A DNA stretch of 62,940 bases from Longimicrobiales bacterium (GTDB lineage Bacteria > Gemmatimonadota > Gemmatimonadetes > Longimicrobiales > RSA9): positions 1 to 62,940 of the forward strand of contig DASTYK010000021.1 of the NCBI GenBank assembly GCA_035764935.1, in the 5' to 3' direction. The notes under the pieces were generated by a model that worked only from the letters and a program-made list of their open reading frames with translations, was not told where the DNA came from and did not search any database. Numbering within the stretch: the stretch's first letter is position 1; each line of letters begins with the position of its first letter. Made by a program: the position numbers and the translations under genes. Of the stretch, positions 20,082-23,503 are shown in pieces.

Positions 20082-21917
20082 ATGGGATACCGGAGTCTGG
20101 AGGAGTGCGTCACCGACCTGGAGGCGCACGGCCACCTTGTGCGGGTCAGGGAGGACGTCGATCCGCACCTCGAGATGGCGGCGGTCCACGAGCGGGTGTT
20201 CGCGGCGGGCGGCCCGGCGATCCTGTTCGAGAATGTGCGCGGCACGCCCTTCCGCGCGGTGTCCAACCTGTTCGGCACGATCGAGCGTGCGCGCTTTCTC
20301 TTCCGTGACACACTCGCGCGCGTGCAGACGCTGGTCGGGCTGAAGTACGATCCGGTCCAGGCGCTTCGTCATCCATTCCGCCACTTCTCGTCAGCCACCC
20401 TCGCCCCGTCCGCGCTGCCGCGGCGTGTGCGCAGCGCGCCCGTGCTCCAAGGTCAGACGCGCATGGGTGCCCTGCCGCAGATCGTGAACTGGCCGGACGA
20501 CGGCGGACCGTTCGTGACGTTGCCGCAGGTCTATACCGAGGACGTGACGAAGCCGGGTGTCATGGGTGCAAACCTCGGGATGTACCGCATCCAGATGGCC
20601 GGCAACGACTACGTCCAGGACCGCGAGATCGGGCTGCACTACCAGATCCACAGGGGCATCGGCGTTCACCAGGCGCGCGCCAATGCGGCGGGGCAGCCGC
20701 TGCAGGTCAGCATCTTCGTCGGCGGGCCGCCCGCACACACGCTCGCCGCCGTGATGCCGCTGCCGGAAGGACTGCCGGAGGTGGTGTTCGCAGGCGTGCT
20801 CGGCAACCGTGCGTTCCGCTACCTGCGCGACGACGCCGGCCGCTGCATCTCGGCGGACGCGGACTTCGTGATCACCGGCACCGTGCATCCGCACGAGACG
20901 AAGCCGGAAGGACCGTTCGGCGATCACCTCGGCTACTACAGCCTGGTGCACGACTTCCCCGTGATGCGCGTGGAGCGCGTGTACCACCGAAGGGGCGCGA
21001 TCTGGCCATTCACGGTGGTGGGACGCCCGCCGCAGGAGGACACCGCGTTCGGCGCGCTGATCCACGAGCTGACCGGCGACGCGATCCCGCAGGAGATTCC
21101 GGGGCTCCATGCAGTGCACGCGGTCGACGCAGCGGGCGTGCACCCGCTGCTGCTCGCGATCGGCAGCGAGCGCTACACGCCCTTCATGCGTGAGCGTCGG
21201 CCGCAGGAGATCCTGACCATCGCGAATCACATCTTCGGCAAGAACCAGCTCAGCCTGGCGAAATACCTGTTCATCACCGCACACGAGGACGACCCGTCAC
21301 TCGACATCCACGACGTGGGCGCATTCCTGCGCCACGTGCTGGAGCGCATCGACCTCACGCGCGACCTGCACTTTCAGACCCGCACGACGATCGACACGCT
21401 CGACTACAGCGGTACCGGACTCAACGAGGGCTCCAAGGTCGCAATTGCGGCGGCGGGTGAGCGACGACGCGAGCTCTGGTCAGCGCTGCCGGAGGGCGTG
21501 CGGCTGCCGCGGCCGTTCGATGCGCACGCCATGGTGATGCCGGGCGTCGTTGCAGTAGAGGGACCTGCGTTCAGAAGTCACGAGGCCGCGGCAGGTGAGA
21601 TCGCGGCGTTCGCCCGCGAGCTGGAGTCGTACGACCTCGCCGGCGTTCCGCTCATTGTGCTGTGCGACGACGCCACGTTCTGCGCCGCGTCCATCGCGAA
21701 CTTCGTGTGGGTCACCTTCACACGCAGCAACCCGTCGCACGACGTGCACGGCGTCGGCGCGTTCATCGAGCACAAGCACTGGGGCTGCCGCGGCCCACTG
21801 ATCATCGACGCGCGCGCGAAACCGCATCACGCCCCGCCGCTGGTGCCGGATCCCGCGGTGGAGAAGCGGGTGGACCGGCTGGGGGCGAGGGGAGCGTCAC
21901 TGCACGGGATCATCTAG
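20082..21917 (+). CDS. UbiD-family decarboxylase (menaquinone-pathway type)
   Basis: The 611-residue protein belongs to the prenylated-FMN UbiD decarboxylases, which remove a carboxylate from aromatic or unsaturated acids. The conserved active-site region reads KPEGPFGDHLGYYS, including the catalytic Glu, and NRAFRYLRDD and HDVHGVGAFIEHKHWGCRGP are further family blocks. At over 600 residues it is longer than E. coli UbiD and resembles the long form common in menaquinone-using phyla. A role in quinone synthesis is therefore likely but not proven by neighbours; no UbiX or other quinone gene is in the window. GGAG stands 4 nt before the ATG. Confidence 0.88.
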   Translation: MGYRSLEECVTDLEAHGHLVRVREDVDPHLEMAAVHERVFAAGGPAILFENVRGTPFRAVSNLFGTIERARFLFRDTLARVQTLVGLKYDPVQALRHPFRHFSSATLAPSALPRRVRSAPVLQGQTRMGALPQIVNWPDDGGPFVTLPQVYTEDVTKPGVMGANLGMYRIQMAGNDYVQDREIGLHYQIHRGIGVHQARANAAGQPLQVSIFVGGPPAHTLAAVMPLPEGLPEVVFAGVLGNRAFRYLRDDAGRCISADADFVITGTVHPHETKPEGPFGDHLGYYSLVHDFPVMRVERVYHRRGAIWPFTVVGRPPQEDTAFGALIHELTGDAIPQEIPGLHAVHAVDAAGVHPLLLAIGSERYTPFMRERRPQEILTIANHIFGKNQLSLAKYLFITAHEDDPSLDIHDVGAFLRHVLERIDLTRDLHFQTRTTIDTLDYSGTGLNEGSKVAIAAAGERRRELWSALPEGVRLPRPFDAHAMVMPGVVAVEGPAFRSHEAAAGEIAAFARELESYDLAGVPLIVLCDDATFCAASIANFVWVTFTRSNPSHDVHGVGAFIEHKHWGCRGPLIIDARAKPHHAPPLVPDPAVEKRVDRLGARGASLHGII

Positions 21918-22030
21918 GGGGTGCGGGCGAGGGTGCTGCTTCTCGCGTGGGGTTGGGGCCGTCGTGGGGCACTGCGGGGCGTGGGAGCTGCGGAGCCCGG
22001 GGCCGGGGGCCTGGGCCGGGGAGGGCAGGC

Positions 22031-22335
22031 ATCGTTGCACGCGTTCGAGTCTGGCGGAATGCGCTCAACGTTTCGCCGGGATGGTCGCAGCCAACGTTGC
22101 GCGCGATCGAGTCTGACGGAATGCGCGCAACGTTTCCCTGGGATGGTCGCAGCCAACGTTGCACGCGTTCGGGTCTGGCGGAATGCGCGCAACGTTTCCT
22201 TTGATTATCGCAGCTAACGTTGCACGCGTTCAGGCTTGGCGGCATGTGCGCAACGTTGCCTTTGATAATCAGAGCCAACGTTGCACGCGTTCGGTTCCAG
22301 CGGAATGCGCGCAACGTTTCCTTTGATCGCAGCCC
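22031..22335. repeat. Array A: five tandem 61-62 bp hairpin repeats
   Basis: Units begin at 22033, 22095, 22157, 22218 and 22279 (steps 62, 62, 61, 61). Each has a 14-nt left arm (mostly CGTTGCACGCGTTC), a constant 10-nt loop, and a 14-nt right arm (mostly GAATGCGCGCAACG). Units 2-5 extend the stem by a further AA/TT pair on the outside. Linkers of about 23 nt end in GCAGCC or GCAGCT in most units. Arms vary at a few positions and most changes keep G-T or Watson-Crick pairing. It is not coding and not a CRISPR array, since the linkers are conserved too. Confidence 0.9.
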
Positions 22336-22392
22336 GCCCGAACTGTCACGGCGCCGCGCCACCTCGCGACACCAGCAAGCCGGTTTGCCGCC

Positions 22393-22424
22393 TCCGCCCC
22401 TCCGCCCCTCCGCCCCTCCGCCCC
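22393..22424. repeat. Four TCCGCCCC tandem repeats
   Basis: Four exact 8-bp units, followed by a partial fifth, form a C-rich, strand-asymmetric stretch 60 bp after array A. It is a likely slippage microsatellite. Confidence 0.85.
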
Positions 22425-22543
22425 TCCGGGCCGGCCGTGCCTCGGTGCACTGCTGCTGCTGGCCGGCGTCGGAGCAACGGTGGCGGCGCTCCGTTGTGCG
22501 GCGGGCGCGCGTGCTGAACTGAGCTGACGGCTCGCCGCCGCGG

Positions 22544-23503
22544 TTACGCCTCGGGCAACGAATCCACCAGCTCGACCATCCGTTGCCGCGTCGCATCGTC
22601 CGGCAACTCACCCGTGGCGGCGCCCAGGTTGTCGAGCATGTGGCGCGGCTGGCTGGTGGCCGGGGTGATCACGGTCACGGCGGGGTGTGCGGCGATGAAC
22701 TTGAGGAAGAACTGGGCCCAGCTCGCCGCGCCGAACTCTGCGGCCCAGTCGGGCAGCTCGCGTCCTTCGACGCGACTCCAGAGGCGCGTCCGACCGAAGG
22801 GCAGGTAGACCATGACCCCGATCTTCCGCTCCTGCGCGAGCGGCAGGATCGTTTCCTCGACGCCGCGGTTGTCGATGGCATAATCGACGCCGATGAAGTC
22901 GAGCGGCTCGTTGCGCATGATCGACTCGAGCTCGTCGTACTGCCGCTCGCTGGTCGAGGTCACGCCGATATAGCGGACGCGCTTCTGCTGCTTGAGCTCC
23001 TTCAGAATCGCGAGCTGCGTCGGCACGTCGCCCAGGTTGTGCACCTGGATGAGATCGATCACGGATGTGTGCAGTCGGCGGAACGACTGCTCGATCTGTG
23101 CGCGGGCGGCGGCCGGGTCCGCGCTGCCACCGTCGCGGCCGGCGACGTTGACCTTGGTTGCCCAGAAGATCCGGTCGGTGATGCCCAGCTCGTGGGCGAG
23201 CTGCCCTGCGACCTCTTCGGACGCGCCGTAACCCGGTGCCGTGTCGAAGACCGTGCCGCCGTTGTCGACGAGCGTGCGCAGCACCTCCCGCAGTGCGCTC
23301 ACGTCTTCCGAGCGGGCGACCCGCGAGAAGGTGGCCGAGCTGCCGAGGCCGACCAGCGGGAGCTCCTCGCCCGTCGAGGGGATCGGCCGCGTGATCAGCT
23401 TCAGCTTGCGCGGAGCACGCGCGGCGCGCAGGAGGCGCGGGTCCAGTGCGAGGGCGGCGCCCGCGCCGAGCGCGAGGCCCAGCCATTCCCGTCGATTGAT
23501 CAT
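22544..23503 (-). CDS. Tat-exported aldo/keto reductase
   Basis: The 319-residue protein begins INRREWLGLALGAGAALAL, a twin-arginine signal, so the folded enzyme is probably exported. The body is an aldo/keto reductase barrel with the catalytic set visible: Asp and Tyr in VFDTAPGYG, Lys in FWATKVNV and His in LIQVHNLGD. The NADP-binding C-terminal part has TVITPATSQPRHMLDNL. It reduces aldehydes or ketones of unknown identity. ATG 23503 has GGAG seven bases upstream and starts exactly at the Tat signal; longer frames are not supported. Confidence 0.88.
   Translation of the reverse strand: MINRREWLGLALGAGAALALDPRLLRAARAPRKLKLITRPIPSTGEELPLVGLGSSATFSRVARSEDVSALREVLRTLVDNGGTVFDTAPGYGASEEVAGQLAHELGITDRIFWATKVNVAGRDGGSADPAAARAQIEQSFRRLHTSVIDLIQVHNLGDVPTQLAILKELKQQKRVRYIGVTSTSERQYDELESIMRNEPLDFIGVDYAIDNRGVEETILPLAQERKIGVMVYLPFGRTRLWSRVEGRELPDWAAEFGAASWAQFFLKFIAAHPAVTVITPATSQPRHMLDNLGAATGELPDDATRQRMVELVDSLPEA

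Follow-up and report, generated by a model that had tools for sequence, protein, structure and literature searches.

Among the intergenic repeats of bacteria, REP elements and BIMEs have been studied best, and RAYT transposases are linked to their spread. MITEs are short elements with terminal inverted repeats, and the attC sites of integrons are imperfect palindromes whose outer ends are conserved around AAC/GTT (core boxes RYYYAAC ... GTTRRRY) and which have a variable middle and strand polarity. BIMEs, REPs and REPINs have been described as palindromic intergenic repeats specific to a lineage, alternating and clustered, that go together with RAYT (TnpA-REP) transposases (PMC2817692, PMC3116915, PMC8266576). 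The CGTC-tagged repeats have stems of 8-9 bp, loops of 4-5 bases and a CGTC tag, and clusters of them are rare (PMC3733652). For repeats such as those reported here, a literature search of partial coverage returned no description in Gemmatimonadota.

The window, i.e. the whole stretch of 62,940 nucleotides from a Longimicrobiales bacterium that was analysed, contains five inverted-repeat units of about 60 bp at steps of 61-62 bp, placed between a ubiD-like gene (+) and an aldo/keto reductase gene (-) that converge on them. The features are as follows.

22022..22327, no strand assigned: whole array of five units, in the 'T' orientation as judged by the -1 linker asymmetry
22022..22081, no strand assigned: unit 1, the most degenerate of the five, with its 42-bp core at 22031-22072
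22084..22143, no strand assigned: unit 2, core at 22093-22134
22146..22205, no strand assigned: unit 3, core at 22155-22196
22207..22266, no strand assigned: unit 4, core at 22216-22257
22268..22327, no strand assigned: unit 5, core at 22277-22318
22258..22276, no strand assigned: linker between units 4 and 5, gcctttgataatcagagcc, near the palindromic family consensus GCCTTTGATNATCAAAGGC
20082..21917, + strand: left neighbour, ubiD-like decarboxylase gene, named from its sequence and relatives; the stop lies about 105 bp before the array
22544..23503, - strand: right neighbour, aldo/keto reductase gene (PF00248), with its 3' end towards the array and 217 bp away from it

The preliminary description, made from the letters alone, had reported five tandem hairpins at 61-62 bp steps between convergent genes, and the present coordinates agree with it on both points: the cores start at 22031, 22093, 22155, 22216 and 22277 (spacing 62, 62, 61 and 61). 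AACGTT, said to flank most units at both ends, is present at the left end of four units out of five and at the right end of all five. The proposed arms of 14 nt around an unvarying 10-nt loop had to be amended in part, in that the middle is indeed constant at 10 nt and the arms are 16 nt long in each 42-bp core, the 14+10+14 pattern being its inner part. Tandem Repeats Finder gave the array scores of 347-390. Its RNA folding was stronger than that of 100 out of 100 shuffled sequences (z -7.5 for the + strand and -4.9 for the - strand), which only restates its palindromic nature, and no Rfam family matched the window at gathering score. Among named homologues, the one nearest to the ubiD-like protein is encoded in a Gemmatimonadetes MAG (76%), and the genome was accordingly read as Gemmatimonadota. 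Two other repeats were observed in the window: a perfect 8-bp repeat, CCTCCGCC, at 22391-22428, immediately to the right of the array, and a 45-bp tandem repeat of 3.9 copies at 1554-1728, possibly coding since its period is a multiple of three.

When the source genome (3.83 Mb in 195 contigs, 96% complete) was searched, 19 further places were found. The total comes to about 19 arrays and 60 units, all intergenic, with a density of one array per roughly 200 kb. The count is given as about 19 loci because the arrays at the ends of contigs C104 (L027) and C74 (L020), which have 111 bp in common at 91% identity, including sequence beyond the array, are probably one locus present as two strain variants in the assembly. 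Steps from unit to unit were 61 bp (37 times), 62 bp (twice) and 121 bp (once), the last spanning a unit that carries a one-base deletion. Model R1, to which each array contributed one unit, found no solitary units in this genome, its matches being confined to arrays of at least two units with the exception of one array at a contig end; a single 10-base half-site core lay outside arrays in the 129 kb examined (window plus array surroundings).

In the window array the 42-bp palindrome has the layout AACGTTGC-N26-GCAACGTT and alternates with linkers of 19-20 bp. The family consensus of the linker is palindromic as well, a feature that had not been mentioned before; the unit is therefore about 60 bp long, and along the array inverted half-sites, ATCNNAGGCAAYGTTGC and its mirror image, alternate as in a chain, AAC and GTT being 39 apart over the loop and 22 apart over the linker. 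Array borders fall mostly at unit ends (ATC... and ...GAT) rather than inside units. Between arrays, identity was 93% in the half-site core AACGTTGC, in part owing to the search itself as units were gathered through a match to the core, 67% in the outer ends, 60% in the inner stem and 33% in the loop, the last value being taken as near random for the base composition. Within arrays the core was again at 93% and the loop at 66%. Units have thus been amplified and homogenised inside each array, whereas the half-site core is retained throughout the genome. The units also exhibit polarity: position 9/34 reads T.T, A.A, T.C or G.A in 45 of 60 units, and it pairs in only 9 units compared with 22 expected.

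The exact motif was absent from the other family and order genomes searched, model R1 matched the source genome only among 394 genomes of the class, and the exact patterns were found neither in genome contigs or viral contigs nor in plasmids or phages. According to the preliminary description, a lack of any copy in related genomes together with a lack of covariation would speak against it; for the exact sequence this is literally what was found, whereas related genera carry similar arrays with changed half-sites. Thus, in G010, a genome of the same family, the half-sites GGCNAACTTCC/GGAAGTTNGCC gave 40 matches, against 4 for the reversed pattern, and about 15 arrays with start distances of 39-41 and 22 and a period of about 62. 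A detector based on geometry only, with scores of at least 85 never occurring in 1.5 Mb of shuffled sequence and once in a smaller shuffle, revealed an array with half-site CTCAATCCGCCA and period 61 in G004 (same family), where CTCAAKCCGCCA has 15 matches compared with 0-2 in the 11 other family genomes. G002, also of this family, has an array with CACGATCCGCCA and a period of about 62. Four genera of one family consequently present near-identical array geometry with different half-sites, and it is only through this geometry that a common ancestry of the arrays may be inferred. When wider spacing was allowed, arrays of TTGTCSGCCA/TGGCSGACAA with a period of 51 (19 motif matches against 3) were found in G012, a single-contig genome from another family; its hairpins TTGTCSGCCACTA/TAGTGGCSGACAA occur in arrays at 51-bp steps and as single pairs (L264:9100-9185, L273:20-131, L264:10565-10598 and L265:13263-13296). 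With detector matches in low-complexity GC-rich sequence left out, samples of G007 (400 kb), G006 (229 kb) and G011 (304 kb) contained no convincing array.

Dispersal is evident in G004, where five loci with unrelated flanks contain the same sharp-ended block of three units, about 190 bp in length (L249, L250, L254, L255 and L256), from which we conclude that arrays disperse. The copies at L255 and L256 are situated about 2.5 kb apart on contig C209. Pairs of arrays from different places in G010 are 78-86% identical over 199-316 bp. The array neighbours differ between genera, one DUF559 gene excepted, and no half-site pair was present beside four G010 homologues of genes that surround source-genome arrays. 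Taken together, these blocks and differing neighbours favour dispersal and turnover over strict positional inheritance. The loops of the source genome are too diverged to reveal recent movement. Inspection by eye of 20 array borders in that genome revealed no target-site duplication, and no array-linked transposase or recombinase came to light. The mobile palindromic repeat that the preliminary description had listed among its options is supported both by the approximately 19 arrays and by the block dispersal in related genera.

Gene positions around the arrays were obtained with a simple codon-usage gene caller. Counting arrays with both neighbours known, gaps between convergent genes hold 7 out of 13 in the source genome and 5 out of 14 in G010. 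Such gaps make up 10-17% of the intergenic length, which corresponds to an enrichment with P values of 4e-6 to 8e-4 (P = 0.02 if 25% is expected). The neighbours (FtsK, LolA, HSP70, DNA polymerase I, IF-3, topoisomerase IB and others) have no functional theme, and a regulon was rejected. An AbiEi-like/DUF559 gene, for a predicted PD-(D/E)XK nuclease, lies about 0.5 kb from one source-genome array (L017:2600-3520), and in G010 a DUF559 gene sits between two arrays (L166:655-1455). As a general partner of the arrays it was dismissed, as only one of six DUF559 genes in the source genome and one of two in G010 are near arrays; it is retained as a weak lead. Another G010 gene flanked by two arrays encodes an ordinary PALP enzyme. 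Immediately to the left of the DUF559 gene of the source genome, a 90-bp direct repeat was observed (L017:2357-2679).

Since the units are palindromic and both strands fold strongly, it could be envisaged that they act as structured RNA, i.e. as transcript-end hairpins for termination or mRNA protection, as the preliminary description had suggested. The position of arrays at gene ends agrees with this, and so does an excess of G-U over A-C mismatches in one orientation (95 to 59; 13 arrays versus 3), which is the strongest indication left that single strands have a role but might instead stem from half-sites that already differed in the ancestor. On the other hand, when each array is represented by a single unit, the proportion of paired cells is 71.0% compared with 74.3% in shuffles, and only 8 double-sided changed cells were observed compared with 21. 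The deficit persists in either orientation and without position 18, and part of it may stem from unit polarity and from the procedure by which arrays were oriented. The family alignment, again with one unit per array, gives no sign of compensatory change and contains no covariation. The G-T wobbles reported earlier are present on the + strand of the window array, whereas in the family as a whole differences break pairs more often than chance. As pairs are broken above independence and covariation is lacking, the data do not support conservation as an RNA or as a single-strand hairpin, and agree better with a pair of inverted, directional half-sites in duplex DNA. Array orientation moreover varies irrespective of gene direction, and with no Rfam match either we regard the structured RNA as unlikely.

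As regards the described repeats, the arrays are like BIMEs and REPs in their regularly spaced, alternating elements, their intergenic and clustered occurrence, their lineage-specific sequence and their dispersal in the genome. In contrast to REP/BIME families, which usually exceed 100 copies per genome and include solitary copies or doublets, there are about 60 units and none is solitary; furthermore, the whole array seems to be the dispersing block, and the 11-bp half-sites of G010 and G004 are neither hairpins nor palindromes themselves. The GTAG tag is missing from the consensus (GTAG/CTAC occurs 7 times in the 4020 bases around the 60 units), and PF01797 had no match in the source genome, whereas the same search was positive in 5 of 14 control genomes. 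With neither tag nor Y1 transposase found, the arrays are not filed as REP/RAYT. A RAYT may have been missed, as the assembly reaches 96% completeness and draft genomes readily lose multi-copy genes, but true REP/BIMEs moved by such an enzyme appear very unlikely to us. The CGTC repeats (PMC3733652) are similarly palindromic, intergenic and devoid of a known dedicated transposase; here, by contrast, the units, which always come in clusters, measure about 60 bp and have a middle of 10 bases, and CGTC/GACG (29 times in the 4020 bases) has no fixed consensus position. Inverted ends, no coding capacity and many dispersed copies are traits of MITEs as well, from which the arrays differ in having 2-5 units head to tail and in that no target-site duplication was seen. 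As to a partner insertion sequence, no unit lies outside arrays in the source genome, and the array flanks have no insertion sequence in common. The absence of solitary copies speaks against simple transposition of single units, which would yield them. Conserved AAC/GTT outer ends, a variable middle and strand polarity recall attC, a candidate that was rejected since the consensus AGGCAAC / GTTGCCT does not fit the core boxes (GTTGCCT versus GTTRRRY), since 61-bp steps leave no room for cassettes, and since there are about 19 separate loci. CRISPR was rejected too, the would-be spacers being alike within an array (66% loop identity) and not unique, and no cas genes were present among the neighbour genes scanned.

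The explanation towards which we lean, with as much reserve as conviction, is that the arrays are lineage-specific, non-autonomous, BIME-like dispersed repeats recognised as duplex half-site pairs by a trans-acting protein. Each unit consists of inverted directional half-sites flanking a free loop, and units following head to tail, usually one base apart, place alternating half-sites at fixed distances. A putative trans-acting protein would bind the half-site pairs on duplex DNA and would also carry whole arrays as blocks to sites where they are tolerated, for the most part at gene ends, whereupon slippage or unequal exchange could add and homogenise units locally; arrays of the source genome may still be mobile today. 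From genus to genus the half-sites have changed together throughout the genome with the geometry nearly constant, as expected if the sites track a changing protein. Points that weigh against this explanation are that neither an array-linked transposase or recombinase nor a target-site duplication was seen, that solitary copies are absent, that the diverged loops of the source genome give no evidence of recent movement, and that samples of several genomes contained no array. The main rival is a host architectural array, in which a nucleoid, supercoiling or chromosome-organising protein would bind clusters of paired sites that are kept for this role at gene ends, and protein and sites would have drifted in step from genus to genus. 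Strict spacing, conserved half-sites, free loops and the lack of covariation would all be in line with it, as would the density of one array per roughly 200 kb with no solitary copy, the unrelated neighbour genes and the enrichment between convergent genes. It does not agree well with array positions that are not common to different genera, with blocks recurring at unrelated places in G004 and G010, or with samples of some close relatives that have no array, and we consider it possible but doubtful. The protein-binding array of the preliminary description is thus compatible with the conserved half-sites, free loops and fixed geometry, and overlaps in these data with the mobile repeat. Turnover of chance palindromes as ordinary tandem repeats, without the action of a protein, would explain the loops homogenised within arrays, but not a half-site core held over about 19 separate loci, nor near-identical geometry with other sequences in other genera; already disfavoured by the conservation between arrays, it is highly improbable.

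Under the dispersed-repeat explanation, the source genome harbours a BIME-like family with no RAYT-type transposase found. A more tentative proposal is that the arrays form a new class in Gemmatimonadota, with a near-fixed layout, a half-site rewritten genome-wide in each lineage and a putative site-specific protein outside RAYT/Y1, which would either move the arrays as a recombinase or organise the chromosome. Layout lasts longer than sequence here, since the four array-bearing genera of the family have nearly equal spacing and different half-sites, and this offers a concrete route to the acting protein, which should be present in the array-bearing genera and have a DNA-contacting part that changes with the half-site. 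Genus-specific letters in a near-constant layout suggest small mobile repeats that answer to a protein.
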